A DNA stretch of 11,571 nucleotides from an uncultured Devosia sp. (GTDB lineage Bacteria; Pseudomonadota; Alphaproteobacteria; Rhizobiales; Devosiaceae), in assembly GCA_946481445.1 (NCBI GenBank), contig CAMLOA010000023.1:1-11571 (forward strand), written 5' to 3'. Position numbers and translations under genes: made by a program. How positions within the stretch are numbered: the first letter of the stretch is position 1; each line of letters begins with the position of its first letter. The notes below the pieces were generated by a model that saw only the letters and a list, made by a program, of their open reading frames with translations, did not search any database and was not told where the DNA came from. This document shows, one piece after another, positions 1 through 11,571 of the stretch.

Positions 1-159
1 GGCCAGTCGGTGCTGATCGTGCAGAAGACCGATGCCGACATGGCTGGAGGTCCCATCGGCTTCTCCGAAGCCGCCTGGGCCGGTGACCGGGTGCAGTTCA
101 CCTTCGAAAATTCTGAAATCGCTGAGAAAATCGCCGAAAGGACCGACGATGTTCAATGA
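1..159 (+). CDS. phnF: GntR-family transcriptional regulator, PhnF type (C-terminal end only)
   Basis: An open frame enters from the left edge and ends at the TGA at 157-159, giving the last 52 residues of a protein. The stretch with VPIG-like 'GGPIGFSEAAW', then 'AGDRVQFTFE', matches the end of the UTRA ligand-binding domain of PhnF-type GntR regulators, where the ending normally reads 'G.PI.FS...F.ADRVQ'. PhnF controls phn operons and sits directly upstream of phnG in many proteobacteria. The DNA-binding N-terminus lies outside the window and cannot be checked. The stop overlaps the phnG start by 11 bases, so the regulator is probably co-transcribed with the lyase genes. The family call is good; the exact ligand is unknown. 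Confidence 0.8.
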   Translation, partial: GQSVLIVQKTDADMAGGPIGFSEAAWAGDRVQFTFENSEIAEKIAERTDDVQ

Positions 160-604
160 AGCCAGTGGCGCCCCGGCGGGGGACCACTTCGATCACGCCG
201 ACTTGCTGGGCGTGCTGGCCCGGTCGCGCCCGGCACACCTCAAGGCCATCGCCGAAACCCTGCTGCAGGACCTTGCCGACATTCGCGTCATTGCCAACCG
301 CACCGGGCTGGTGATGGTGCCCATGCGCGATACCGTTGAAAACACAGACTTCTTCCTCGGTGAGGTGCTGGTCAGCGAGGCGCATATCGCCGATGCCGCC
401 GGTCATGTCGGCTATGGCATGATCACCGGCCGCGACCTTGAAACCGCTATGGCCATGGCCGTCGCCGACCTGGCTCTGGGTGCCGGCATCGCCAGGGACA
501 AGGTCCTCGCCCTCATCGAGTCCGAGCGCCGCATCCAGTCCGCCGCCGACGAAACCCGCCTGCGTCAGGTGGAGGCCACCCGCGTCGAAATGGAGACCTT
601 CTGA
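149..604 (+). CDS. phnG: C-P lyase core complex subunit PhnG
   Basis: The protein has 151 residues, close to the 150 of E. coli PhnG. PhnG is a subunit of the PhnGHIJ core complex and is needed, with PhnI, H and L, to couple phosphonate to the ribose of ATP. Supporting motifs are 'VLARSRPAHL' near the N-terminus, 'RTGLVM' in the middle, 'FFLGEVLVSEA', and 'GHVGYGMITGRD' followed by an alanine-rich helix, all in the family's order. The reading frame is open further upstream, but the ATG at 149 has an AAAGGA-like ribosome site about 7 bases before it and gives the family length. The gene overlaps the end of phnF, and its TGA shares an A with the phnH start. The cytoplasmic role is inferred from the family. 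Confidence 0.95.
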   Translation: MFNEASGAPAGDHFDHADLLGVLARSRPAHLKAIAETLLQDLADIRVIANRTGLVMVPMRDTVENTDFFLGEVLVSEAHIADAAGHVGYGMITGRDLETAMAMAVADLALGAGIARDKVLALIESERRIQSAADETRLRQVEATRVEMETF

Positions 605-1131
605 TGCTCACCGTCTCCCCGCCAGACGTCGCCGAAGCCCGCGCCAATGGCACGTTCGAAGCCCTGATGTGGGCGCTCGCCCGGCCCGGCGAAAGCCGCG
701 ACATGCCCCATCCAGGCCTTGAGGACATTGTCGAAACCCTTGTCGACCGCGAATGCACCGCTTTCGCCGACACCCCCGCGATCGCCGCCGTGATCGCGCA
801 GACCGGCGCCACCCTCGGCCCAATCGAGCACGCCGACCACCTCTTCCTGGAAAGACTCGACACCGGCGTCATCGGCGCCGTCCCCTGCGGCAGCGCGCTC
901 TATCCGGATGACGGCGCCACCATCGTCGCTACCACGTCCCATGCCGGCCAGCGCCTGCGCCTCACCGGCCCCGGCATCGAGGGCTTTCGCGATGTGTCTC
1001 TGGCCGTGCCCGCCGCCTTCTGGGCCCGGCGCGCCGAGCTGTGCACCTACCCCGAAGGCTTTGACCTGTTCCTCGTCGATGGCCGCTCCGTCATCGGCAT
1101 TCCCCGCTCAACCCTGGTAGAGGTGCTCTGA
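604..1131 (+). CDS. phnH: C-P lyase core complex subunit PhnH
   Basis: The protein has 175 residues, somewhat shorter than E. coli PhnH (194). PhnH is a PLP-transferase-like fold without PLP; it forms the outer part of the PhnGHIJ core complex. Recognisable parts are the N-terminal 'TFEALMWALARPGE' (family: F..LL.AMS.PG), a central 'GSALYPDDGATIV', then 'RLTGPGI', and the ending 'GIPRSTLVEV'. The start ATG at 604 overlaps the phnG stop (TGATG), and the gene's own stop overlaps phnI in the same way, so translation is probably coupled. No catalytic residue is known for the family, so function is assigned by homology and position. Confidence 0.94.
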   Translation: MLTVSPPDVAEARANGTFEALMWALARPGESRDMPHPGLEDIVETLVDRECTAFADTPAIAAVIAQTGATLGPIEHADHLFLERLDTGVIGAVPCGSALYPDDGATIVATTSHAGQRLRLTGPGIEGFRDVSLAVPAAFWARRAELCTYPEGFDLFLVDGRSVIGIPRSTLVEVL

Positions 1132-2219
1132 TGGCCTATGTCGCAACCCGCGGTGGCGAAAAGGCCATCGAGCAGGCCGAACGCCTGTTCCGCCAGGACC
1201 TTGGCAGCATCGACGCCACCCGCGTCGCTGCCATCCGCCAGTCCATGCCCTACCTGATCGACCGCGTCATGGGCGAAGCCTCGCTCTACGACGAGGAAAT
1301 GGCCGCGCTCGCGCTGGCCCAGACTGGCGGCGAACTCTCCGAAGCCGTCCTGGTCCTCCGCGCCTGGCGCACCACTCAACCGCGCATCGCCGTATCCGAG
1401 CCGGTGCTGCAGGCCGATCTCCTGACCCAGCGGCGCATCTCGGCCGCCTTCAAGGACATTCCCGGCGGCCAGATCTTGGGGCCGACCCTGGACTATTCCC
1501 ACCGCGTGCTGGCCACAGATGTGCTGGAAGGCAAGCCCTTCGATCCGCCGGCCGTCGACGCTGCGGCGACGCCTGCGCCCGCCCGCCAGCCCTCGCTGGC
1601 CGATTGGCAGCGCCAGCAGGGTCTGGTCGCCCGCAAACCGGAGCCCGAGGTGGCGCTGGACGAAATCCCCGATCTCACCCGCGAGCCGTTGCTCTTCCCG
1701 GCCTCGCGCGCGCATCGCCTGCAAAGCCTGGCCCGCGCCGAAACGGGCGGCGTGCTGGCGCTCGGCTATTCGGCGATGCGCGGCTATGGCAATGCCCACC
1801 CCACGGTCAACGAACTGCGCCTCGCCGAAGCCGAAATCGTGGTCCGCCACCCGAGCGGCACAAAGTTCGTGGCCGGCCGCGTCCGGGTCAGCCAGGCCGA
1901 GGTGACCTCAAAGGAGAAGGGCGGCTACCTCGAACTGGGCTTTGCAGCCACGTTCGGCTGGAATGAAGTCAAGGTGATTGCTGCGGCGACGCTCGACCTC
2001 AACTCGGCCGAAGCCCCCGTCGGCTCGCCGGTGCACGAGGAATTCTACCTCTACCACACCGAGCCAGTCGAAGCCTCGGGCTTCTGCATCCACTTCAAGC
2101 TGCCCCACTACGTCACCTTCCAGTCGGTGCTCGATGCCATGCGCGACGCCAAAACCAAGGCCGCCGCGCAGCCCGCTCTCGAGACTGCCCCCGAACGCCA
2201 GCCGGAGCCCGCCGAATGA
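1131..2219 (+). CDS. phnI: C-P lyase core complex subunit PhnI
   Basis: PhnI (362 residues; E. coli about 354) is the subunit that, with PhnG, H and L, makes ribose-1-phosphonate-5-triphosphate from ATP and phosphonate. The N-terminus 'YVATRGGEKAIEQA', then 'SLYDEEMAALAL', 'RRISAAFKDIPGGQILGPTLDYSHR' and 'DLTREPLLFPASRAHRLQSLAR' follow the family closely. His321 and His326 in 'IHFKLPH' correspond to the E. coli metal-binding pair His328/His333. Two differences stand out. The stretch before the C-terminal motif (about residues 250-290) looks shorter and more divergent than the usual version, which reads roughly RGYG.vFG..ERKAM. The C-terminus carries an extra Ala/Pro/Glu-rich tail. It starts in a TGATG overlap with phnH and ends in an ATGA overlap with phnJ. 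Confidence 0.95.
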   Translation: MAYVATRGGEKAIEQAERLFRQDLGSIDATRVAAIRQSMPYLIDRVMGEASLYDEEMAALALAQTGGELSEAVLVLRAWRTTQPRIAVSEPVLQADLLTQRRISAAFKDIPGGQILGPTLDYSHRVLATDVLEGKPFDPPAVDAAATPAPARQPSLADWQRQQGLVARKPEPEVALDEIPDLTREPLLFPASRAHRLQSLARAETGGVLALGYSAMRGYGNAHPTVNELRLAEAEIVVRHPSGTKFVAGRVRVSQAEVTSKEKGGYLELGFAATFGWNEVKVIAAATLDLNSAEAPVGSPVHEEFYLYHTEPVEASGFCIHFKLPHYVTFQSVLDAMRDAKTKAAAQPALETAPERQPEPAE

Positions 2220-3130
2220 GCCTCTCTACCCTCACCAGGCCCTGGGCCGCCACCAGCTATGGCTTTCTCGACGCCTCGGCCAAGCGCGAACTGCGCCGCA
2301 AAATGCTCAAAGCCATTGCCGTCCCCGGCTGCCAGATGCCCTATGCCAGCCGCGAAGTGCCGATGGCGCGCGGCTGGGGAACCGGCGGCCTTCAGGTGAC
2401 CTTGACGCTGGTCAATCCGCAATCGACCATCAAGGTGATCGACCAGGGCGCCGACGATGGCGTCAACGCGGCCTCCATCCGCCGTTTCATCAGCCGCGTC
2501 TCCGGCGCCACTGAAACCTGGGATACGCTGGACGCCTCCATCGTCCAGTCCCGCCACCGCGTGCCCGAAGAAACCATGCGCGAGGACCAGATCCTCGTGC
2601 TTCAAGTCCCCAATCCCGAGCCATTGCGCGGGGTCGAGCCCAACATGTCCATCGCCCGGCAGATGCATGCCGATGCCGATTATGGCCGGCTCTGGCTGAC
2701 CCTCTATGAGCAGATGGTCCGCAAGGGCCGCATCATGCAGGGCGCGGCCTATCCCAGCATGGTCAATGGCCGCCATGTCATGACCCCGTCGCCCATCCCG
2801 CGCTGGGACGTGCCCAAGCTCGATATGGCGCGCCACCTGACGTTCCTGTCCGCCGGGCGCGAGAAGCGTCTGCATGCCGTGCCGCCCTTCACCCGCGTCG
2901 AGCCTCTGGTCTTCTCCGACCGCCCCTACCGGGTCGAGGATCACGCCGACCTCACCTGCCGGCGCTCCGGCATTTCCGGCTACTTCATGAACGAAATCCC
3001 GCTCGATGCAGGCGGCTCGGAGTTCGAAGTGTCCGATAGCAATCTTGGCATCAAGTCCATCCGCCGCTCCGAAGGCGAAGCCGTTGCCATCGGCGACACC
3101 TGGTACCGCAACGGGGAGTACTCGGCATGA
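2216..3130 (+). CDS. phnJ: PhnJ-like C-P lyase subunit lacking the Fe-S and catalytic cysteines
   Basis: PhnJ is the radical SAM enzyme that cleaves the C-P bond. This 304-residue protein (E. coli 281) is clearly of the family: 'LKAIAVPGCQ', 'GWGTGG', 'KVIDQGADD', 'RHRVPEE' (His114, matching E. coli His108), 'MTPSPIPRWDVPK' and 'AGREKRLHAVPPFTRVE'. Gly38 matches the radical glycine Gly32. The C-terminal domain is abnormal. E. coli uses Cys241, 244 and 266 for the [4Fe-4S] cluster and Cys272 for catalysis. Aligning 'ADLTCRRSG' and 'FEVSDSNLG' to the canonical blocks gives Cys248, Ser251, Val272 and Gly278. Only Cys39 and Cys248 exist in the whole protein. The tail after Gly278 is also longer than usual. 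The codons read cleanly with no frameshift seen. Standard radical chemistry is therefore not expected; true function is unknown. Confidence 0.9.
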   Translation: MSLSTLTRPWAATSYGFLDASAKRELRRKMLKAIAVPGCQMPYASREVPMARGWGTGGLQVTLTLVNPQSTIKVIDQGADDGVNAASIRRFISRVSGATETWDTLDASIVQSRHRVPEETMREDQILVLQVPNPEPLRGVEPNMSIARQMHADADYGRLWLTLYEQMVRKGRIMQGAAYPSMVNGRHVMTPSPIPRWDVPKLDMARHLTFLSAGREKRLHAVPPFTRVEPLVFSDRPYRVEDHADLTCRRSGISGYFMNEIPLDAGGSEFEVSDSNLGIKSIRRSEGEAVAIGDTWYRNGEYSA

Positions 3131-3948
3131 ACATGGCCATGACCCTGCCGCAGCCCACCCTGCTGCCGCCGCAACTGATGACCGCCCAGCCGATCGTCAC
3201 CATGCGGGCAATCTCCAAGCACTATGGCAATGTCCGGGCGCTGAGCAATGTGGATGTCACCGTCTATCCCGGCGAAGTCGTCGGCATAGTCGGCGAAAGC
3301 GGCTCCGGCAAGTCGACCCTGCTGCGCATGATGAACCTGGAAGACACGCCCGACACCGGCGACTACCGCCTGTGCCTGCCCGACCGGGACGACGGTAATC
3401 TCTTCGATCTCGGCCGTTATCAGCGCCGCATGCTGTGCGCCCACCATATCGGCATCGTCTACCAGAATCCCCACCTCGGCCTGCTGATGCGCCACAGTTC
3501 CAGCGGCAATGTCGCCGAACGCCTGTTGATTGCCGGCGAGCGGAGCTTTGACGTGCTGCGGGCCAAGGCCCGGGACGCCCTCGACGCCTCGGAATTCCCG
3601 CTATCCCGCATGGATGCGCGGCCCGCCGAACTCTCGGGCGGCATGCAGCAGCGCGTGCAACTGGCCAAGGCCATTGCGCTCGAACCGGCTTTGCTGCTGC
3701 TCGACGAGCCCACCACTGGGCTCGACGTCAGCGTGCAGGCCCTGGTGCTCGACACGCTCAAGCGCCTGCAGCGCGATCGTCGCATTACCATGGTACTGGT
3801 CAGCCACGATCTTGGCGTTATCCGCACCATGGCCGACCGCGTGCTGGTCATGCGCCATGGCGAAGTGGTGGAGCAGGGGCTGGCCGATCAGGTCTTCCAG
3901 GACCCCCAGCACCCCTATACCCAGCAACTCGTGCACGCCAAGCTCTAG
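3127..3948 (+). CDS. phnK: C-P lyase ABC-type ATPase PhnK
   Basis: PhnK is a soluble ABC ATPase that docks on the PhnGHIJ core at PhnJ and is needed for phosphonate breakdown in vivo. The 273-residue protein has a Walker A 'GESGSGKS' at 56-63, signature 'LSGGMQQ' at 169-175, Walker B ending in Asp193-Glu194, and an H-loop His227 ('VSHDLG'). 'YQNPHLGLLM' around the Q-loop and the ending 'QHPYTQQLVHAKL' resemble PhnK and oligopeptide-type ATPases; position decides for PhnK. The N-terminus is about 15 residues longer than in E. coli; internal ATGs at 3133, 3139 and 3178 are alternatives. It overlaps phnJ by ATGA. All ATPase residues are intact, although its PhnJ partner is unusual. Confidence 0.93.
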   Translation: MNMAMTLPQPTLLPPQLMTAQPIVTMRAISKHYGNVRALSNVDVTVYPGEVVGIVGESGSGKSTLLRMMNLEDTPDTGDYRLCLPDRDDGNLFDLGRYQRRMLCAHHIGIVYQNPHLGLLMRHSSSGNVAERLLIAGERSFDVLRAKARDALDASEFPLSRMDARPAELSGGMQQRVQLAKAIALEPALLLLDEPTTGLDVSVQALVLDTLKRLQRDRRITMVLVSHDLGVIRTMADRVLVMRHGEVVEQGLADQVFQDPQHPYTQQLVHAKL

Positions 3949-3957
3949 GGGCCAGCC

Positions 3958-4692
3958 ATGACCGACACACAGCCCATATTGCGCGTCCAGGGCCTCACCA
4001 AGACCTTCCGCATGTATCACCTGGACAGCATGCTGCACGCTTTCGAGGGCATCAGCTTCGACCTGCATGCCGGCGAATTCCTGCTGCTGCGCGGGCATAA
4101 CGGCGCCGGCAAATCCACCTTGCTGCGCACCATCTGGCGCAGCTATCTGCCCGTCGCCGGACAGCTGATCTATCAGTCCAGCATGGGCGAGATCGACCTG
4201 GCTCTGGCCGCCGATGTCGATATCGCTTTGTTGCGGCGCCAGGAGATCGGCTTCGTCACCCAGTTCCTTAATGCCCGCCCGCGCGTCGCCGCGCAGGACA
4301 TCGTTGCCGAGCCGCTGCGCCTGGCTGGCCATGCTCCGGCCGATGCGCTCGACCAGGCCCGGCACTGGCTGGCCGAATTCGGCGTGCGCGAAGAGCTCTG
4401 GCGCGCCTATCCCAGCACTTTTTCGGGTGGCGAGCAGCAGAAGGTGAACCTTGCCCGCGCTCTGATCCTGCCGCAGCGCCTGCTGCTGCTGGACGAACCC
4501 ACCGCATCCCTCGATGCCGGCGCCCGCGCCGCCCTGGTCCGGCGCCTCGGCGACCTCAAGGCGCAGGGTGTCGCCATCATCGGCGTGTTCCACCATCCCG
4601 GCGACGTGGCCCAGTTGATCGATCGCGAAATCGACCTGGCGACCCGCGCCGTCTCCGACGAAAGCGAGCGAGAAGATCATGTGGCTGTCTGA
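3958..4692 (+). CDS. phnL: C-P lyase ABC-type ATPase PhnL
   Basis: PhnL acts with PhnI, G and H in the first step, joining phosphonate to the ribose of ATP, and can also bind the core complex as an ABC ATPase beside PhnK. The 244-residue protein shows Walker A 'GHNGAGKST' at 46-54, signature 'FSGGEQQKVNLARAL' from 155, and Walker B with Asp179-Glu180. The H-loop is 'GVFHHPGDV', matching the 'GIFHD' style of PhnL rather than transporter ATPases. The 'KTFRMYHLDS' start and 'LHAGEFLLLRG' are also typical. It begins 9 bases after the phnK stop and its end overlaps phnM by 14 bases. No sign of damage is seen. Confidence 0.94.
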   Translation: MTDTQPILRVQGLTKTFRMYHLDSMLHAFEGISFDLHAGEFLLLRGHNGAGKSTLLRTIWRSYLPVAGQLIYQSSMGEIDLALAADVDIALLRRQEIGFVTQFLNARPRVAAQDIVAEPLRLAGHAPADALDQARHWLAEFGVREELWRAYPSTFSGGEQQKVNLARALILPQRLLLLDEPTASLDAGARAALVRRLGDLKAQGVAIIGVFHHPGDVAQLIDREIDLATRAVSDESEREDHVAV

Positions 4693-5872
4693 TTTCCGTA
4701 TTGTCCTGGCCGACACCGTCATCGACCGCGGCGCTTTGCGCATCGAAGACGGCATGATCGCCGAACTGCGCGAAGAGCCGGTGGAGCATGCCGATATTGT
4801 CGGCGACGGCCTGATCCTGATGCCCGGCATGATTGATATGCATGGCGACATGATCGAGCGCGAAGTCGAGCCACGCCCCAATGTGCGCATGCCCATGGAA
4901 TTGGGCCTGCGCGACCTGGACCGGCGCCTCGCCAACTCAGGCATCACCACCGCCTATGCGGCTTTGTCCTTCAGCCCCGGCTCGACCTATGGCCACATGC
5001 GGTCCTACGACTTCACCAGCCAGATGATCCGCGACTTGCGGGCCTTTGCTCCCAGCTTGCTGGTCGATCACCGCGTGCATGCCCGCTTCGAAGTCACGTT
5101 TCCCGCTGCTCTCTCGGTGGTCAAGGAACTGATCGCCGAGGGCTCGGTCGATCTCATCTCGCTCTGCGACCATACGCCGGGGCAGGGCCAGTATCGCGAT
5201 CTCGCCAAGCAGGCCGAGATGCTGTCCAAGTCCAAGGGCATTACGCTCGAACAGGCCGCCGAAAACCTGCAGCAGCGTATCCGCGATCGCCTTGAGACCG
5301 CCGGCGATCTCACCGCCACTCTGCGCGCCATCGCGCAATACTGCGCCCTCCACGGCGTTCCGGTGGCCAGCCACGATGACGACACCGTCGAAAAGGTGGC
5401 CCAGATGCAGGGGCTGGGCGCCGGGATCAGCGAATTCCCCGTGACCATGGAAGCAGCTCGGGAAGCCCGGGCACGCGGTCTGGTCAACGCCATGGGTGCC
5501 CCCAACGCCCTGCGCGGCACCTCCTATTCCGGCAACTTGTCGGCACGCGATGTCCACGCCGCCGGCCTGCTCGATATGCTCGCAGCCGACTATCACCCCT
5601 CCGCCATGCTCCCCGCCGTCCTGGTTCTGGCGCAGACCGATCCGGAGGGACTTGCGGGAGCCGCGCGCTATGCCACGCTCAATCCTGCCCGTGCGCTTGG
5701 CCTTGAGGATCGCGGCGAGATCCGCACCGGCCTGCGAGCCGACCTCGTCATAGCCGACGACCGCGGCGTGGGTCATGTCCGCACTGTCTTCAGCAGGGGC
5801 AGGGCCATCTACTCGGACGGCTCCCTCCCGCAGGGCCAGGTCAAAAACGTCACGAGCATGTCATTCGGATGA
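4679..5872 (+). CDS. phnM: PhnM: ribose 1-phosphonate 5-triphosphate diphosphatase (amidohydrolase family)
   Basis: PhnM removes pyrophosphate from alpha-D-ribose 1-alkylphosphonate 5-triphosphate, producing the substrate that PhnJ normally cleaves. The 397-residue protein has the amidohydrolase layout: a small N-terminal beta part, metal motif 'DMHGDMIERE' (His55, Asp57), 'EPRPNV', 'SLCDHTPGQ', 'VASHDDDT', 'MGAPNALRG', 'SGNLSA', 'AADYHPSAML', and the C-terminal 'LNPARALGLEDRGEI.TGLRADLV'. E. coli PhnM has 'ELHTDN' where this one has 'DMHGDM', so it belongs to a somewhat different branch, but the metal His and Asp are kept. The ATG lies within phnL. The 3' end contains the Pho-box-like repeats listed separately. 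The function call depends on the neighbouring lyase genes and is well supported. Confidence 0.93.
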   Translation: MWLSDFRIVLADTVIDRGALRIEDGMIAELREEPVEHADIVGDGLILMPGMIDMHGDMIEREVEPRPNVRMPMELGLRDLDRRLANSGITTAYAALSFSPGSTYGHMRSYDFTSQMIRDLRAFAPSLLVDHRVHARFEVTFPAALSVVKELIAEGSVDLISLCDHTPGQGQYRDLAKQAEMLSKSKGITLEQAAENLQQRIRDRLETAGDLTATLRAIAQYCALHGVPVASHDDDTVEKVAQMQGLGAGISEFPVTMEAAREARARGLVNAMGAPNALRGTSYSGNLSARDVHAAGLLDMLAADYHPSAMLPAVLVLAQTDPEGLAGAARYATLNPARALGLEDRGEIRTGLRADLVIADDRGVGHVRTVFSRGRAIYSDGSLPQGQVKNVTSMSFG

Positions 5873-5902
5873 GTTAACGCTGTCATGTGAGGTCGCTAGA
5901 AC
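5847..5902 (+). promoter_or_regulatory. Putative Pho-box promoter for phnCDEE
   Basis: Four 7-base units lie exactly 11 bases apart: ACGTCAC (5847), ATGTCAT (5858), ATGAGTT (5869) and CTGTCAT (5880). PhoB recognises CTGTCAT-like units at 11-base spacing. The units match CTGTCAT/C at 5/7, 6/7, 3/7 and 7/7. A weak -10 candidate, TAGAAC at 5897-5902, begins 10 bases after the last unit, which fits Pho promoters where the box replaces the -35 element. The first units lie in the 3' end of phnM. This would allow phosphate-starvation control of the transporter genes separately from the lyase block. The strength of single units is modest, so the call is tentative. Confidence 0.5.
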
Positions 5903-5928
5903 CGGGGCATGGACTGAACCAGTCCCGG
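5902..5928 (+). other. Small inverted repeats upstream of phnC
   Basis: GGACT (5911-5915) and AGTCC (5921-5925) can pair around a 5-base loop; alternatively CCGGG (5902-5906) pairs with CCCGG (5924-5928). The two pairings exclude each other. There is no T tract, so a terminator is unlikely. It may be a leader hairpin or chance. Confidence 0.25.
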
Positions 5929-5955
5929 ATCGGTCAACCTGGTGGAGGGCACGCG

Positions 5956-6789
5956 ATGCTGGAGCTTCGCAAGATCACCAAGGCTTTCGGTGAAACCGTC
6001 GCCGTCAACAATGTCTCGCTGAACTTTGCGCCCGGCCAGATGGTCGGTATCATTGGTCGCTCGGGTGCCGGCAAGTCGACCCTGCTGCGCCTGATCAACC
6101 GGCTGGCCACGCCGGGTAGCGGCGACATCACCTTTGAGGGCACCAGGGTCTCGACGCTCACGGGCAAGGCCCTGCGGGAGTGGCGCGCCCGCTGCGCCAT
6201 GATCTTCCAGCAGTTCAACCTGGTGAACCGCCTTGATGTCCTCACCAATGTGCTGATCGGACGCATCGGGGAGACCGGCACCTTGCCGGTCATGTTCAAG
6301 CACTTTTCGCAGGCAGACCGTGCCGCTGCCGCCCTTGCGCTGGACCGGCTGGACCTCTTGCCCCAGGCGCTGCAGCGCGCCGACACGCTCTCGGGCGGCC
6401 AGCAGCAGCGGGTAGCCATTGCCCGGGCGCTGATCCAGAACCCGAAGGTCATCCTGGCCGATGAACCGATCGCGTCGCTCGATCCGCGCAATGCCCGCCT
6501 CGTCATGGAGGCCCTCCGCCGCATCAACCGTGAAGATGGCATTCCGGTCATCTGCAACCTTCACACTCTCGACGCGGCCCGGGCCTACTGCGATCGCATC
6601 GTCGGCATGGCGCATGGACGTGTCGTCTTCGACGGCACGCCCGAAATGCTGACCTCTCAGGCGATCCAGGCCATCTATGGCGATGCTGGTTCGTCAGACG
6701 AGGTCGATGAAAGCCTGACCTCCACGCTCGGCGCCATCCCGGTGCCGCAGCCGGCGAGGATCCCAGAATTGGCCGGTGCCAGCCTCTAG
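5956..6789 (+). CDS. phnC: Phosphonate ABC transporter ATP-binding protein PhnC
   Basis: PhnC is the cytoplasmic ATPase that powers phosphonate import through PhnE. The 277-residue protein has Walker A 'GRSGAGKST' at 34-42, Q-loop '[20 protein letters not shown]', signature '[15 protein letters not shown]' from 145, Walker B with Asp169-Glu170 ('[13 protein letters not shown]') and H-loop His203 ('CNLHTLD'). The Q-loop sentence and '[16 protein letters not shown]' are characteristic of PhnC. The frame is open upstream, but the ATG at 5956 is preceded by GGTGGAGG (5941-5948) at good spacing and starts the normal '[12 protein letters not shown]'. The C-terminus is about 15 residues longer than in E. 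coli. It is first in the transporter cluster, behind the putative Pho box. Confidence 0.95.
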
Positions 6790-6838
6790 GCGGCGGTCAA
6801 CCTACGACCAAAACAAATCATCACCGGAGCTCACGACC

Positions 6839-7759
6839 ATGAACACGTTCATGCGCCGCACCCTTGCGGCTGCCCTGATGGCGGCTGCCATCGTCGCCCC
6901 TGCCTTCGCCCAGGATTGGCGCGAGCAATATCCCGAACTCAGCATCGGCATCTCGTCCAGCGAGAATGAAGCCGACGCCATCGCCCGCAACGAGGGTTAT
7001 GCTGCCTATCTCAGCCGCAAGCTGGGCGTGCCGGTCAATGTCGTGCGCGGTACCGACTATGCGGCCGTCATCGAGGCCATGCGCGCCGGCCAGGTGCAGT
7101 TCGCCTCCATCGGTCCGGCAAATTATGCCCTGGCCCGCAAGGTGATGGGCGACGGCGTGACGCCGGTGGCCGTCAGCCTCGATCGCGAAGGCGCCAAGGG
7201 CTACTATTCCATCGTGGCCGTGCGTGCCGACAGCCCCTACCAGTCGCTGGACGATCTGAAGGGCAAGAGCTTCGCCTTTGCCGACCCGAATTCGACTTCG
7301 GGCTACGCCGTCCCCTCCTACTACCTCTCCACCGAACTCGACACGTCGGCCGACGAGTACTTTGGCGAAGTGGCCTTCTCCGGCGGTCACGAGCAGAGCG
7401 TGATCGCTCTGGTCAACGGCACGTTCGAGGCCGTTGCCACCCACTGGACCAACGAGACGCGCGGCAACATCCAGCGCATGGTCGAAAAGGGTCTGGTGCC
7501 GGAAGGGTCGACCCGCATCGTGTGGAAGTCGCCGATCATCCCCGGCTCGCCCGTCGTGATGCGCACCGACCTGCCGGAAGAGCTCAAGGCTGCCTTCACC
7601 GAAGCCATCTTCGCCTTTGCCGAAGAAGACCCGGAAGCCTTCAACGAACTGCATTCCGGCGAGTCCTCGGGATACGCGCCCGCCACGCATGAAGACTATC
7701 TCGATGTGATCGCCATCACCGAATACAACGCCGAGCAGCGCAAGGCGAACGCCAACTGA
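6839..7759 (+). CDS. phnD: Phosphonate ABC transporter periplasmic substrate-binding protein PhnD
   Basis: PhnD captures phosphonates in the periplasm and delivers them to PhnE. The 306-residue protein starts with a clear signal peptide: 'MRR', a hydrophobic alanine-rich core, and cleavage likely after 'AFA' at residue 24. 'ELSIGISSSENEADAI', 'YAAVIEAMRAGQVQFASIGPANYALA' and 'FADPNSTSGYAVPSYYL' follow the family; the 'STSG' at 152-155 lies at the pocket that holds the phosphonate group in this fold. 'HEQSVIALVNGTFEAVATH' is also typical. The chosen ATG at 6839 begins the signal peptide and has CGGAG 9-10 bases upstream. The ligand cannot be read from sequence; a 2-aminoethylphosphonate-like or alkylphosphonate ligand is only a guess. 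Stem-loop downstream. Confidence 0.95.
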   Translation: MNTFMRRTLAAALMAAAIVAPAFAQDWREQYPELSIGISSSENEADAIARNEGYAAYLSRKLGVPVNVVRGTDYAAVIEAMRAGQVQFASIGPANYALARKVMGDGVTPVAVSLDREGAKGYYSIVAVRADSPYQSLDDLKGKSFAFADPNSTSGYAVPSYYLSTELDTSADEYFGEVAFSGGHEQSVIALVNGTFEAVATHWTNETRGNIQRMVEKGLVPEGSTRIVWKSPIIPGSPVVMRTDLPEELKAAFTEAIFAFAEEDPEAFNELHSGESSGYAPATHEDYLDVIAITEYNAEQRKANAN

Positions 7760-7768
7760 TCCAGCTCA

Positions 7769-7795
7769 AGGGCGCGGGGCCATGCTCCGCGCCTT
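7769..7795 (+). terminator. Strong stem-loop between phnD and phnE1 (attenuator or mRNA 3'-end stabiliser)
   Basis: The run GGCGCGG (7771-7777) pairs exactly with CCGCGCC (7787-7793). The stem extends inward by G-T, G-C and C-G pairs to a 3-base CAT loop and outward by G-T and A-T pairs, giving 12 pairs. It starts 9 bases after the phnD stop. Only two Ts follow, so full termination is doubtful. Such hairpins after binding-protein genes commonly protect the upstream mRNA and lower expression of the permeases. Confidence 0.65.
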
Positions 7796-7814
7796 CTGCC
7801 ATTGGAGGCTCCCC

Positions 7815-8711
7815 ATGACCGATGTCCATGTCGCCACGCTGCCGGCCGAGGCCCGTCTGACCGGCTTCGAACAGCGCTACCAGCAGCAGCGGAAGCTGCG
7901 CCTGGCCTGGACCCTGCTCTATGTTGGCCTCTTCGTCGCCGCCCTGATCGGCTCCATGCAGGTGAGCGCCTTCAACCCCGCAAAGCTTGCGGCGGGCCTG
8001 CCCAAGGCCTGGAACTACATTTCTGGGACGTTCCCGGCTTTGCACTGGGAGACGCTCGGCGCCGATATCGCCGACTGGTACTGGGGCATTCGCTACTGGC
8101 TCAGCCTGCTGGTGGAAACAGTTCTCATGGGCTTTGTCGGCACTGTGCTGGGCGGCGTCATCGCCCTGTCGCTGTGTTTCTTTGCCTCGCGCAACCTGGC
8201 GCCGAACGGGACCGTCTATTTCGTCAGCCGCCGCTTGCTGGAATTCCTTCGCACTGTCCCCGAACTCGTCTTCGCGCTCATTTTCGTCTACGCCTTCGGC
8301 CTGGGTCCCTTCGCCGGCGTCCTGGCCATTGCCATTCACACCGGCGGTTCACTCGGCAAGCTGTTTTCCGAGGTGAACGAGAACGTGGATGAACGCCCCA
8401 TAGAGGGGATCCGCGCAGCCGGCGGCACCTGGCTGATGATCCAGCGGCTAGCCGTCGTTCCCCAGGCCCTGCCCAACTATGCCAGCTATCTGTTGCTGCG
8501 CTTCGAGATCAATGTCCGCGGCGCGGCCGTGCTCGGCGTGGTCGGGGCAGGGGGCATTGGCGAGGATCTCTACGTCGCCATTCGCCAGTTCGAATACACC
8601 GATATCAGCGCCATCATGCTGCTGCTGATCGCCATGACCGCCATAATCGACATGACCTGCGAGTCCATCCGCCACCGCCTGATCGGCCACGATCTGGGCA
8701 AGGGGAACTGA
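7815..8711 (+). CDS. phnE: Phosphonate ABC transporter permease PhnE (first copy)
   Basis: PhnE forms the inner-membrane channel of the phosphonate importer. The 298-residue protein has a first membrane segment at about residues 31-50 ('AWTLLYVGLFVAALIGS'), further segments near 94-120, 145-175 and 255-280, and the permease coupling loop with 'IEGIRAAGG' near residue 196, which contacts PhnC. 'LRTVPELVFALIFVYAFGLGPFAGVLAIAIH' and 'GVVGAGGIGEDL' are hallmark PhnE stretches. The ATG at 7815 follows GGAGG (7804-7808) at 6 bases; an ATG at 7782 in the same frame lies inside the stem-loop and lacks such a site. It is followed one base later by a second permease, so the channel is probably a heterodimer. 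Confidence 0.94.
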   Translation: MTDVHVATLPAEARLTGFEQRYQQQRKLRLAWTLLYVGLFVAALIGSMQVSAFNPAKLAAGLPKAWNYISGTFPALHWETLGADIADWYWGIRYWLSLLVETVLMGFVGTVLGGVIALSLCFFASRNLAPNGTVYFVSRRLLEFLRTVPELVFALIFVYAFGLGPFAGVLAIAIHTGGSLGKLFSEVNENVDERPIEGIRAAGGTWLMIQRLAVVPQALPNYASYLLLRFEINVRGAAVLGVVGAGGIGEDLYVAIRQFEYTDISAIMLLLIAMTAIIDMTCESIRHRLIGHDLGKGN

Positions 8712-8712
8712 C

Positions 8713-9567
8713 ATGAGCATCTCCGCCACCGAGCGCCTGGCGTCCATCCGGCAGGCCCATCCAGAAGTCTTTCACCGCCCGCTCGGCCAGCGCCTGCTGC
8801 CTGTGGCCGGCTGGGGGGCCGTGCTGGCCGTGCTGGGCTTCGGCCTGTGGTGGATCGATGCCTCCCCCGCCCGCATTTGGCAGGGGCTGGACAAGCTGGG
8901 CTTTCTGGTTCGCTTCATGTGGCCGCCCAGTGATGGCGGTGTGTTCCATGAGCACGCCTTTGCCATGCTCGAAACCCTTGCCATGGCGTTCCTGGGCACG
9001 GTAGTGGCCGCCTTGGTTGCATTGCCGCTGGGATTCCTGGGCGCCAAGAACGTCGTGCCCAACTGGCTCTTCCACTTCACCCTGCGCCGCGGCTTCGACA
9101 CCCTGCGCGGCATCGACAGCCTGGTCTGGGCGCTGATCTTTGTCAGCGCCGTGGGCATGGGGCCGTTTGCAGGCGTACTGGCGATCGCGGTGTCCGATGT
9201 CATGGTCTTCTCCAAGCTCTTCGCCGAGGCGATCGAGAACGTCGAACGCAAGCAGATCGAGGGCGTCCGTTCGGCGGGCGCCAGCCCGGTCCAGACCTTG
9301 CGCCTGGGAGTCTTTCCGCAGGTCTTTCCGGTCATGCTGAGCCACATCCTTTACTTCTTCGAAGGCAATGTGCGCTCGGCGACGATCCTGGGCATTGTCG
9401 GGGCGGGCGGCATCGGGCTGCAATTGTCCGATCGCATCCGCATCAACAATTGGGACGAGGCGGCCTTCATCATCCTGATGATCCTGGTCACCGTTTCGAT
9501 CATCGACAACATTTCCCGGCGCATCCGCGTCAAGCTGATCGAAGCGGCCCCAAACAGAGTTCAATAG
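8713..9567 (+). CDS. phnE: Phosphonate ABC transporter permease PhnE (second copy)
   Basis: A second PhnE-type permease of 284 residues begins one base after the stop of the first, with AGGGGAA (8701-8707) as ribosome site. It has the same plan: an early membrane segment around residues 32-52, a core starting at 'AMLETLAMAFLGTVVAALVALPLGFLGA', 'LRGIDSLVWALIFVSAVGMGPFAGVLAIAVSD', the coupling loop 'IEGVRSAGAS', and 'GIVGAGGIGLQL'. The two copies are related but not recent duplicates; they agree mainly in the core motifs. The usual interpretation is that the two subunits pair in the membrane and share one PhnC dimer. It is the last gene of the transporter cluster. Confidence 0.94.
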   Translation: MSISATERLASIRQAHPEVFHRPLGQRLLPVAGWGAVLAVLGFGLWWIDASPARIWQGLDKLGFLVRFMWPPSDGGVFHEHAFAMLETLAMAFLGTVVAALVALPLGFLGAKNVVPNWLFHFTLRRGFDTLRGIDSLVWALIFVSAVGMGPFAGVLAIAVSDVMVFSKLFAEAIENVERKQIEGVRSAGASPVQTLRLGVFPQVFPVMLSHILYFFEGNVRSATILGIVGAGGIGLQLSDRIRINNWDEAAFIILMILVTVSIIDNISRRIRVKLIEAAPNRVQ

Positions 9568-9572
9568 TGAAG

Positions 9573-9588
9573 CGTACCGGCGGGTACG
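9573..9588 (+). terminator. Small hairpin after phnE2, possible weak terminator
   Basis: CGTACC (9573-9578) pairs with GGTACG (9583-9588) around a GGCG loop, 5 bases after the phnE2 stop. The stem is only 6 pairs and no T run follows, so any termination would be weak or factor-dependent. Confidence 0.3.
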
Positions 9589-9612
9589 GCGCATACCTTG
9601 CTCAAGATGGCT

Positions 9613-9641
9613 TGCTAATATTAGCACATCGTGCATTAGCA
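9613..9641 (+). promoter_or_regulatory. Palindromic operator candidate upstream of the LacI-type gene
   Basis: TGCTAATATTAGCA at 9613-9626 is a perfect 14-base palindrome, and its half-site ATTAGCA recurs at 9635-9641, 15 bases on. The TG...CA outline and size suit LacI-family operators, though the centre is AT rather than the classic CG. The site is markedly AT-rich against the surrounding DNA and lies 28-56 bases before the regulator's start. Self-regulation by the downstream gene is the simplest reading; the site may also contain its promoter, but I cannot place -35 and -10 boxes with confidence. Confidence 0.55.
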
Positions 9642-9668
9642 TGGCTCCTGATCAAGTCCGAACCAGCC

Positions 9669-10769
9669 ATGACCCGCCCAGCCAGCTCCTCTACTCCCCG
9701 CAAGGGTACTGTCTCGCGCGCCGGCCGCCGCAGTGCCGTGCGACGGGTCACCATGACCGATGTGGCGCGTGAAGCGGGGTGCTCGCAGGCCACCGTATCA
9801 TTCGTCCTGAACGATGCCCCGGGGATAAGATTGTCGCCCGAGACCCGCAAACGTGTGGTGGAGGCGGCGCGTCGCCTGGGCTATGTCAGCGCGGCCCCGG
9901 CATCGGGGCGGCCCGGTCCGCTGGCCGGCAACCGGCGCGGCCGCCGGATCGGCTTCGTGGTCGACCAGCTTGCGACCAGCCCCGAGGCGGTGCAGGCCAT
10001 AGAGGGCCTGAGCCAGGCCTCGCGGGCGGCAGGGGACATGGTGCTCGTGTCGCAGACCTACAATGATGCCGAAGCCGAGGCGGATCTCATCGAAGCCTTT
10101 GTCGAGCAGGGCGTGGCGGCGCTGGTCTACATGACCATCTTCACCCGCGAGGTAGAACTGCCCACAGCCCTGAAAAACCTCGAAATTCCGGTGCTCCTGC
10201 TCAACTGCTACGCGCCCGGCCAGCCGCATCCGGCCGTGGTTCCGAGCGAGATTGCTGGCGGGCAGCGCTCCACCCACCACCTGATCACGATGGGACACAG
10301 GCGCATCGCCACTATAACCGGCGAAATCTGGATGGAGGCCGCCCAGGACCGCTTGAAGGGTTATCGCCGGGCCCTGGCCACCGCCGATATTCCCTTCGAT
10401 GCGGAACTGGTGTTCGAGGGTGATTGGTCCGCCAGCGCCGGCTATGACGCCACCCGCAGGATCCTGGCGCTGCGCGACGTGCCCACAGCCATCTTCTGTC
10501 AGAACGACCGCATGGCGATCGGTTGCTACGAGGCACTCAAGGAGGCGGGATACGATATTCCCGGCGACATGTCCGTCGTCGGCTATGACGACGAGGAGAT
10601 CGCCCGCCACCTGCATCCGCAATTGACCACGTCGGTGCTGCCGCATCGCGCCATGGGGCAGTGGATTGCCGAGCAACTGGGGGAGGGGGCCGAGGCCGAC
10701 CGCTATCCACTGACCAAGCTGGAATGCCCGCTGGTGGAGCGGGCCTCCGTGGCCAAGCCGCGGGATTGA
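9669..10769 (+). CDS. LacI-family transcriptional regulator
   Basis: A 366-residue LacI-type repressor. Residues 29-50, 'MTDVAREAGCSQATVSFVLND', form the DNA-binding helix-turn-helix, followed by the hinge region 'TRKRVVEAARRLGYVS'. The rest is a periplasmic-binding-protein-like effector domain with 'RRIGFVVDQL', 'LLNCYAPGQPHPAVVPSEIAGG', 'GHRRIATITGE', 'PTAIFCQNDRMAIGCYEALKEAG' and 'VVGYDDEEIARHLHPQLTT'. The ligand is most likely a sugar or similar small molecule, by family only. The ATG at 9669 leaves an Arg/Ser-rich N-terminal extension; ATG 9753 at the helix-turn-helix is an alternative, and neither has a strong ribosome site. It follows phnE2 on the same strand but has its own palindrome upstream, so it may not belong to the phn system. 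Confidence 0.9.
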   Translation: MTRPASSSTPRKGTVSRAGRRSAVRRVTMTDVAREAGCSQATVSFVLNDAPGIRLSPETRKRVVEAARRLGYVSAAPASGRPGPLAGNRRGRRIGFVVDQLATSPEAVQAIEGLSQASRAAGDMVLVSQTYNDAEAEADLIEAFVEQGVAALVYMTIFTREVELPTALKNLEIPVLLLNCYAPGQPHPAVVPSEIAGGQRSTHHLITMGHRRIATITGEIWMEAAQDRLKGYRRALATADIPFDAELVFEGDWSASAGYDATRRILALRDVPTAIFCQNDRMAIGCYEALKEAGYDIPGDMSVVGYDDEEIARHLHPQLTTSVLPHRAMGQWIAEQLGEGAEADRYPLTKLECPLVERASVAKPRD

Positions 10770-10827: not shown

Positions 10828-11571
10828 CTACTCCTTTGGTGACGCTATCGAATTTCGTTCGATGAGTTCACATTCCAACTTGAGCTTCTGCAGCCGTTCG
10901 TCGGCGTCAATGCCCTCCAGGCCATCGAGCAGCTGGCCCACGGCCCAGCGTGCCATTTCGTCATGGGGCAGGTCCATGGACGAAAGCGGCGGGTCCATGT
11001 TGGCGGCGATGTCTTCGTTGTCGAAGCCGATGATGGAGATGTCGTCGGGGATGCGCAGGCCGATGGTCCGGGCTGCCTCATAGCAGCCGATGGCGGTGCG
11101 ATCGCAATAGCAGAAGATCGCGGTGGGTGGGTCGGGTTGGGAGAGCAGGGCGAGGGCCCGTTCGCGGCCGGCACGGATCGACCAGCCCCCCAGCGTGACC
11201 AGCGACTCTTCCACGGGGACGCCCCAGGCCTCCATGGCCTGGCGGAAGCCCTTTTCCCGGTCGACCGCTGCGTCCTCCAGGTGTTCTCCGGCAAGATGGG
11301 CAATCCGCCTGTGCCCGGCGCGCAGCAGGGCTTCGGTGGCCATGTAGCCGCCCACAATGTCGCCGGGCACCACGGCCGGATGGCGAAGTCGCTTCTCGTA
11401 GCAGTTGAGCAGCACTAGCGGCAGGGCTGAAAACGCTTCGGGAACAATGACATCCCGGGTAATCAGCGTGCAGTAGATCGCGCCGATGGCGTTCTGGGCG
11501 ACCAGCATGTCGAGGCCCGCCTGCTCCAGCGCTGGGTCATTGCCGGTGCAGAAGGTGGCGATGGTCACCTG
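10828..11571 (-). CDS. LacI-family transcriptional regulator (partial, N-terminus beyond the window)
   Basis: The minus strand is open from the right edge to a TAG at 10830-10828, giving 247 residues of a LacI-type effector-binding domain. The helix-turn-helix lies outside the window; a GTG at 11568 is an in-frame codon, not a believable start. The protein resembles its neighbour: both carry 'LLNCY', 'HPAVVP', 'GHRRIA', 'PTAIFC..DR.AIGCYEA', a 'Y/F-D-x-E-x-I-A' segment, and a closing 'K.EC.L.ER.S.A.P'. The two are therefore paralogues, arranged tail to tail. Its targets are likely genes to the right of the window, plausibly a carbohydrate operon, but nothing here shows which. Confidence 0.88.
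   Translation of the reverse strand, partial: QVTIATFCTGNDPALEQAGLDMLVAQNAIGAIYCTLITRDVIVPEAFSALPLVLLNCYEKRLRHPAVVPGDIVGGYMATEALLRAGHRRIAHLAGEHLEDAAVDREKGFRQAMEAWGVPVEESLVTLGGWSIRAGRERALALLSQPDPPTAIFCYCDRTAIGCYEAARTIGLRIPDDISIIGFDNEDIAANMDPPLSSMDLPHDEMARWAVGQLLDGLEGIDADERLQKLKLECELIERNSIASPKE

Follow-up and report, generated by a model that had tools for sequence, protein, structure and literature searches.

The phn operon analysed here encodes a full-length PhnJ that retains one of the four functional cysteines of E. coli PhnJ. We interpret this complex and those of its relatives as forming a second C-P lyase class, one in which PhnJ would hold no cysteine-ligated cluster. The iron-sulfur cysteines are lost but the metal and sugar-phosphate site is kept, which argues that the chemistry is probably different, and the complex probably works at the zinc site. 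We refer to these proteins as Cys-poor and to four-cysteine proteins as canonical.

A Cys-poor PhnJ in a complete phn operon

The window, by which we mean the whole stretch of 11,571 nucleotides from an uncultured Devosia sp., carries on its forward strand the gene order phnG-H-I-J-K-L-M-C-D-E-E, followed by a LacI-type regulator gene:

32..604, + strand: phnG (PF06754 and TIGR03293 above cut-off; Pfam match from residue 58, true start probably downstream of 32)
604..1131, + strand: phnH (PF05845 and TIGR03292 above cut-off)
1131..2219, + strand: phnI (PF05861, 353 bits)
2216..3130, + strand: Cys-poor phnJ (PF06007 and alignments)
3127..3948, + strand: phnK (best NCBIfam match TIGR02323, 223.9 bits, below the cut-off of 302.85)
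3958..4692, + strand: phnL (TIGR02324, 225.2 bits, below the cut-off of 256.3)
4679..5872, + strand: phnM (NF011988 and TIGR02318 above cut-off)
5887..6789, + strand: phnC (TIGR02315 above cut-off)
6776..7759, + strand: phnD (TIGR03431 above cut-off)
7782..8711, + strand: phnE1 (TIGR01097 above cut-off)
8713..9567, + strand: phnE2 (named from an ORF cluster shared with phnE1, with no family-library match behind the name)
9450..10769, + strand: LacI-type regulator (PF00356 and PF13377; HTH residues 101-146; true start downstream)

The original prediction placed an intact phnJ frame in a coupled operon, and this holds: phnG, H, I, K, L and M are all present, with genes overlapping or near-abutting, and phnK and phnL score below the NCBIfam equivalog cut-offs. 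Two LacI-family genes (9450-10769 and 10828-11568) lie end to end behind phnE. A relative of the window LacI gene was found near just 5/84 Cys-poor loci, and a LacI-type gene also stands at the start of both Thermus phn operons.

The phnJ ORF (2216-3130, + strand) encodes 304 amino acids, is full length and matches PF06007 with 374.4 bits (cut-off 25). As predicted, the protein has two cysteines. The earlier account discussed C248 alone; the other is C39. We aligned the protein to E. coli PhnJ (4xb6_D), using a canonical relative for the C-terminal end:

2957..2959, + strand: PhnJ Cys248, equivalent to E. coli Cys241, the sole Fe-S cysteine retained (C in 315/325 Cys-poor PhnJ; codon read)
2966..2968, + strand: PhnJ Ser251 at E. 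coli Cys244 (alignment; codon read)
3029..3031, + strand: PhnJ Val272 at E. coli Cys266 (alignment; codon read)
3047..3049, + strand: PhnJ Gly278 at E. coli Cys272, the thiyl cysteine (alignment; codon read)
2330..2332, + strand: PhnJ Cys39, equivalent to E. coli Tyr33, adjoining the proposed glycyl-radical residue Gly32 (alignment)
2552..2557, + strand: PhnJ Arg113-His114, equivalent to E. coli Arg107-His108, cyclic phosphate contacts (325/325)

One of the three cluster cysteines of the E. coli type of radical-SAM C-P lyase (241, 244 and 266) is kept in the window, and Gly278 takes the place of the thiyl cysteine 272. This is the pattern first proposed for the window, with one of four cysteines kept and Ser, Val and Gly at the other three positions.

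The losses recur throughout an alignment of 372 rows (47 canonical and 325 Cys-poor). All four cysteines were present in 47/47 canonical rows, 39 of which had been sorted by that same pattern. Among the Cys-poor rows, C244 and C266 were each absent from all 325, C272 from 324 and C241 from 10, and nine of the 325 proteins were cysteine-free. The position of Cys39 held C in 199, Y in 118, H in 7 and A in 1. The C-terminal domain further differs from that of E. coli PhnJ at D252 (N in 315/325) and L251 (M in 307/325). The 325 include 240 database proteins which, as best matches to the window and Thermus PhnJ, are a non-random sample, as well as the chimeric P0023 and P0044. They also include L150, a repeat of the L070 locus that is likewise counted among the 82 Cys-poor rows below.

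The phnJ gene is under purifying selection. Comparisons of the window with seven relatives gave dN/dS values of 0.056-0.150 for the gene and 0.099-0.268 for its C-terminal domain alone, which are rough because synonymous differences were 0.42-0.70. The low dN/dS and the pattern shared by homologues confirm that the cysteines were replaced and not lost through a frameshift. The original prediction had allowed for a sequencing or assembly error; C244 and C266 occur in 0/325 relatives and C272 in 1/325, which speaks against it. Sequencing error, frameshift and pseudogene are ruled out by the homologue pattern, the 372-row alignment and dN/dS.

Distribution and phylogeny of Cys-poor PhnJ

Among the best 120 of 7049 homologues of the window PhnJ above threshold, all had C39, all had C248 or a shifted equivalent, and none had the four-cysteine block. 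The genus-named best homologues were mostly Devosia proteins. In P0023, the C248 equivalent is shifted to position 300 by an internal duplication of ~52 residues, probably an assembly artefact. The best 120 of 8000 scored relatives of the Thermus HB8 PhnJ included no four-cysteine block and seven cysteine-free proteins; those with names came from Thermus, Meiothermus, Deinococcus, Anaerolineae, Oscillochloris, Roseiflexaceae, Synechococcus sp. WC101 and others. A third search contributed 34 more proteins, none with four cysteines and two cysteine-free. Viral contigs searched with the Synechococcus sp. WC101 PhnJ (P0124) yielded no relative.

We also scanned one genome per species with a C-terminal query piece, itself chosen from Cys-poor proteins. 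The scan gave 161 confirmed loci, 80 of which were kept. All 80 encode Cys-poor PhnJ, one of them (L010) as a partial gene that was left out of both trees and of the 372-row alignment. Their genera include Devosia, Nitratireductor, Paenochrobactrum, Agrobacterium, Rhizobium, Mesorhizobium, Bradyrhizobium, Pannonibacter, Paracoccus, Marivita, Salipiger, Pelagimonas and others. When 121 PhnJ rows were sorted by cysteine pattern, 39 were canonical, 82 were Cys-poor and 0 fell in neither class. Seven plasmid records from haloarchaea, gamma- and betaproteobacteria and the Bacillus group carried canonical copies. In the plasmid search, Thermus thermophilus PhnJ stood at 57-60% identity, against 46-53% for the canonical copies listed.

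Of 385 evenly sampled alphaproteobacterial genomes, 65 had PhnJ, each with a match at 467-507 bits. Two of the 65 had a further PF06007 match at 373-384 bits, and no PF06007 match in the 385 genomes fell between 384 and 467 bits. This score is an unclean proxy for type: the four-cysteine L149 scored 375.8 bits and Cys-poor Thermus proteins 409-416. Since the score ranges overlap, type was read from the sequence unless marked 'by score'. An order-level search found PhnJ in 184/292 genomes; its listing covered the higher-scoring rows and did not serve for typing. L149 (8410-9267) is a very divergent four-cysteine PhnJ with a tree branch of 4.48, and its genome (G028) also holds canonical and Cys-poor copies.

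A conserved clade with conserved operons had been named as a check, and the Cys-poor PhnJ do come out as one branch with its own G-M set. In a tree built without the cysteine-bearing domain, a branch supported at 99/96 separated the 52 Cys-poor rows from the rest, and the alphaproteobacterial ones were nested among Chloroflexota and Deinococcus rows. For this tree, the program warned that the long canonical Mesobacillus branch may join falsely; rows were thinned by number, and the canonical L131, L139, L147 and L149 and the Cys-poor L052 and L056 were also left out. In an earlier tree, built from E. coli and the alphaproteobacterial rows, the Cys-poor group had 100/100 support, with a bootstrap that had not settled. 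Both trees were midpoint-rooted. As judged from these sequences, Cys-poor PhnJ is one clade spanning Devosia, Rhizobium, Paracoccus, Marivita, Thermus, Deinococcus, Chloroflexota and a Synechococcus. The canonical side is spread over archaea and several bacterial groups, and we therefore infer that the cysteine loss is the derived state.

Canonical copies in the host genomes

A second, canonical copy elsewhere in the genome had been suggested, which proved right for most relatives and not for all. We searched the host genomes of 50 of the 80 loci, which are draft assemblies given without completeness values. A four-cysteine PhnJ was seen in sequence alongside the Cys-poor copy in 44/50. A four-cysteine match was looked for in each, and none was found in the remaining six drafts (Devosia elaeis, D. 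marina, D. indica, D. sediminis, D. subaequoris and Paenochrobactrum gallinarii). Within Devosiaceae, PhnJ was found in 79/136 genomes, 26 of which had a full-length match in the Cys-poor score range. These 26 were classed by score and by a match end at profile 268-271 (274 in L149), part of them being read in sequence, and by score the canonical match was absent in seven. A search of two Thermus plasmids, covering the plasmids only, found no second PhnJ.

Both types occur together in Marivita cryptomonadis (L031 and L137). Rhizobium miluonense (G041, contigs C30, C60 and C79; L070) has six PF06007 matches in one genome, comprising four four-cysteine PhnJ, one Cys-poor PhnJ and one short fragment with an internal stop.

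Conservation of the zinc and cyclic phosphate site

Passages of a 2023 cryo-EM study assign PhnI H219, H328 and H333 and PhnJ R107, H108, Q124 and loop 47-50 (GWGT) to the zinc ion and bound 5-phosphoribosyl 1,2-cyclic phosphate (PRcP) (PMC9947105). The same passages describe the four PhnJ cysteines as a putative Fe4S4 site 30 A from Gly32, give a distance of 31 A between Gly32 and the zinc ion for the open state, term the C-P lyase mechanism an unresolved conundrum, and report PRcP modelled at the zinc site in protein that had been produced without phosphonate (PMC9947105). This last observation suggests that the zinc site may form PRcP by another route. Passages of a further paper use Gly32 and the four cysteines to recognise a functional PhnJ (PMC11978286).

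We aligned PhnI from 46 canonical and 85 Cys-poor loci. Three residues of the window PhnI bear on this site:

2091..2093, + strand: PhnI His321, equivalent to E. coli His328, zinc ligand (85/85 Cys-poor, 46/46 canonical; role from passages of PMC9947105)
2106..2108, + strand: PhnI His326, equivalent to E. coli His333, zinc ligand (85/85 Cys-poor, 46/46 canonical; role from passages of PMC9947105)
2085..2087, + strand: PhnI Cys319, two residues before the first zinc-site His (alignment)

At the level of sequence, the equivalents of PhnI H219, H328 and H333 were kept in 85/85 Cys-poor proteins, and those of PhnJ R107, H108, Q124 and loop 47-50 in 325/325. Gly32 was likewise kept in 325/325. Canonical rows also keep nearly all zinc-site residues.

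Two cysteines were considered as replacements and rejected. Cys39 as a substitute thiyl residue beside Gly32 was the idea first favoured; the position is Tyr in 14/82 Cys-poor PhnJ of the alphaproteobacterial set and in 103/122 of the Thermus/Chloroflexota type. A Cys-His-His metal site in PhnI, formed with C319, was the other; this position is C in 83/85 Cys-poor PhnI, Ala in both Thermus proteins and C in 2/46 canonical ones. The PhnI cysteine belongs to the alphaproteobacterial members, and we keep C319 only as a subclade feature. Predicted structures of PhnJ and PhnI had mean pLDDT of 40 and 43 and were unusable.

The GHIJ core of Thermus HB8 contains one cysteine in total, and therefore no cysteine-ligated cluster is possible within one core unit. 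In Thermus strain SNM1-1, GHIJ has two cysteines, one in PhnG and one in PhnJ.

Neighbouring genes and pathway clues

Genes of the phnC, phnD and phnE types lie on the same strand in 59/81 Cys-poor loci. The transporters differ by subclade, being PhnCDE, a system with a family-8 binding protein, or a dipeptide-type system. A PhnF-like GntR-type gene was found near 78/84 Cys-poor and 37/41 canonical loci. PhnN scored above cut-off in 49/50 host genomes, including all six without a canonical match, and lay nearby in 9/84 Cys-poor versus 25/41 canonical loci. In Mesorhizobium AR07, the Cys-poor operon contains phnM-DUF1045-phnN with overlapping ends, and a YmdB-type phosphoesterase gene adjoins both Thermus phn operons. 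The DUF1045 and YmdB families have cyclic-phosphodiesterase activity. Going by such gene content, the downstream genes would fit PRcP or ribose-1,5-bisphosphate as the product.

PhnP and DUF1045 were set aside as diagnostic genes. The PhnP model TIGR03307 was above cut-off in 0/50 genomes, with or without canonical PhnJ (weak matches in 49/50), and DUF1045 also occurs in 6/10 genomes lacking PhnJ. A xylose-isomerase-like TIM-barrel gene lies near 19/84 Cys-poor loci, both alphaproteobacterial and Thermus, and near 0/41 canonical loci by that query; a different member of this Pfam family is present in two haloarchaeal canonical operons. A PfkB sugar kinase lies near 9/84 Cys-poor and 0/41 canonical loci. 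No radical-SAM family was found among the recurring neighbour genes annotated, which are a minority of the neighbours.

Near some Rhodobacterales Cys-poor loci (L040:12950-20093, likewise L029, L043, L053 and L054), there is a further cluster with a PhnD-, PhnC- and PhnE-like transporter, a PhnM-like amidohydrolase and methyltransferase genes; some copies also include a TIM-barrel gene. This cluster resembles an independent system for taking up and degrading a P-compound. A CxxC...CxxC pattern resembling a metal site precedes Walker A in PhnK of six canonical operons of gammaproteobacteria, betaproteobacteria, the Bacillus group and haloarchaea (L156:6879-7709, L157:6848-7708, L158:6846-7691, L160:6885-7736, L153:8981-9811 and L154:8969-9796). 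It was present in 6/46 canonical PhnK (with a near variant in L159), 0/86 Cys-poor and 0/39 alphaproteobacterial canonical ones.

How a Cys-poor complex might work

We tentatively favour a mechanism in which the ribose 2-OH attacks phosphorus with assistance from the metal and no radical is made in PhnJ; we consider it quite possible, if short of probable. PhnI with G, H and L would still join the P-compound to C1 of ribose triphosphate, and PhnM would then remove pyrophosphate. The ribosyl-P intermediate would sit at the PhnI-PhnJ zinc site, where the 2-OH, aided by the metal and His108, would attack phosphorus and expel the organic group without radicals, giving the same PRcP. RNase A makes a cyclic phosphate, and the proposed route can be likened to it. 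Likely substrates would be P-compounds with a usable leaving group, such as activated phosphonates, phosphate esters and phosphoramidates; plain alkylphosphonates may be substrates too. Heterolysis would call for a special substrate, since the leaving group in a plain C-P bond is poor.

The cysteine losses, the cysteine-free PhnJ proteins, the nearly cysteine-free Thermus core, the single clade, the invariant zinc and PRcP contacts and the downstream genes that fit PRcP or ribose-1,5-bisphosphate all speak for this mechanism. Against it, PhnN and DUF1045 are not specific, the PhnI cysteine is absent in Thermus, and the invariance of the zinc-site residues may partly reflect shared ancestry.

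Plain alkylphosphonates might instead be cleaved by a radical made outside PhnJ, with an activase generating a glycyl radical at Gly32 or with another source. The invariance of Gly32 and the cysteine adjoining it in 199/325 proteins are consistent with such a route, which we consider possible but doubtful: the thiyl cysteine is gone, nine PhnJ are cysteine-free and Gly32 may be structural. The annotated neighbours include no radical-SAM gene, although an activase could be encoded elsewhere.

Synechococcus sp. WC101, presumably of hot-spring origin, has a Cys-poor PhnJ (P0124). We take Synechococcus OS-B' and JA-2-3B'a(2-13) to be one strain, and a 2011 ISME J paper reportedly described methane and ethane release in light by OS-B'. 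Phosphonate use is reported for JA-2-3Ba(2-13), and methane release is discussed for such cyanobacteria, in passages of PMC5955973; phosphonate use by OS-B' is reported in passages of PMC9600594. These observations also fit a radical made outside PhnJ, with the PhnJ type read in WC101 only. The growth reports concern strains that carry both PhnJ types or whose PhnJ type was not read. If JA-2-3Ba(2-13) carries a Cys-poor PhnJ, unactivated bonds may be cut, which would make plain heterolysis doubtful. The boldest possibility is a natural C-P lyase for unactivated C-P bonds that needs no Fe-S cluster, SAM radical or thiyl cysteine. It would act at the PhnI-PhnJ zinc site, release methane or ethane, and operate in aerobic cells, even those that evolve oxygen; we regard this as unlikely.

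PhnJ might also be a mere scaffold, with the complex stopping at a ribosyl-phosphonate for activation, storage or biosynthesis. The loss of all catalytic cysteines but one would agree with this, as would the good matches of PhnI and PhnM to their families. The cyclic-phosphate contacts are invariant, the phnC-, phnD- and phnE-type genes share the strand in most loci, and PhnN is present in all six genomes without a canonical match, which makes such an arrest unlikely. Together with the clade's own G-M set, the invariant contacts and transporter genes also weaken the original suggestion of a purely regulatory or scaffold PhnJ.

It is very improbable that Cys-poor PhnJ depends on a canonical PhnJ in the same cell, through mixed complexes or as a regulator. 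Such a canonical protein does occur in 44/50 host genomes. Yet the Cys-poor PhnJ has its own complete operon, no canonical match was found in 6/50 genomes or in 7/26 Devosiaceae with matches in the Cys-poor score range (assemblies possibly incomplete), and the two Thermus plasmids, searched as plasmids only, hold no second PhnJ. That a cluster is still bound through non-cysteine ligands or another protein is barely conceivable: Cys248 is kept in 315/325 and Ser/Thr occupies the C244 position in 324/325, but nine PhnJ are cysteine-free and the whole Thermus HB8 core has one cysteine.

Relation to known systems and implications

The Cys-poor system shares with E. coli C-P lyase subunits G-M, a PF06007 PhnJ, the zinc-site and cyclic-phosphate contacts and Gly32. 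It differs in that PhnJ lacks Cys244, 266 and 272 and falls in a separate clade. It resembles the four-cysteine systems of the same alphaproteobacterial genomes in operon content, and often shares the cell with them (44/50); identity to four-cysteine PhnJ was 46-53% among the canonical plasmid rows listed. The phn cluster of Thermus thermophilus HB8 plasmid pVV8 is similar, with a Cys-poor PhnJ, a LacI-type regulator and phnC-D-E plus G-M. It differs in having no PhnI cysteine; its PhnJ is 60% identical to that of the window, and its only cysteine lies within the motif seen in the window PhnJ. In the open-licence literature searched, we found no description of PhnJ lacking these cysteines; subscription papers were mostly outside this scope.

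A large lineage without the Fe-S site but with the zinc site is a ready-made natural experiment on the mechanism of C-P lyase. Cleavage of unactivated bonds at the zinc site, if true, would also suggest that in E. coli the bond is cut somewhere other than the PhnJ Fe-S site, which lies 30 A from Gly32. These results also bear on environmental surveys. According to passages of PMC8774927, phnJ (K06163) counts are taken to indicate that methane is released from methylphosphonate. Public annotation labels Cys-poor proteins PhnJ too, and therefore environmental phnJ counts, and the methane markers based on them, may mix two enzymes.
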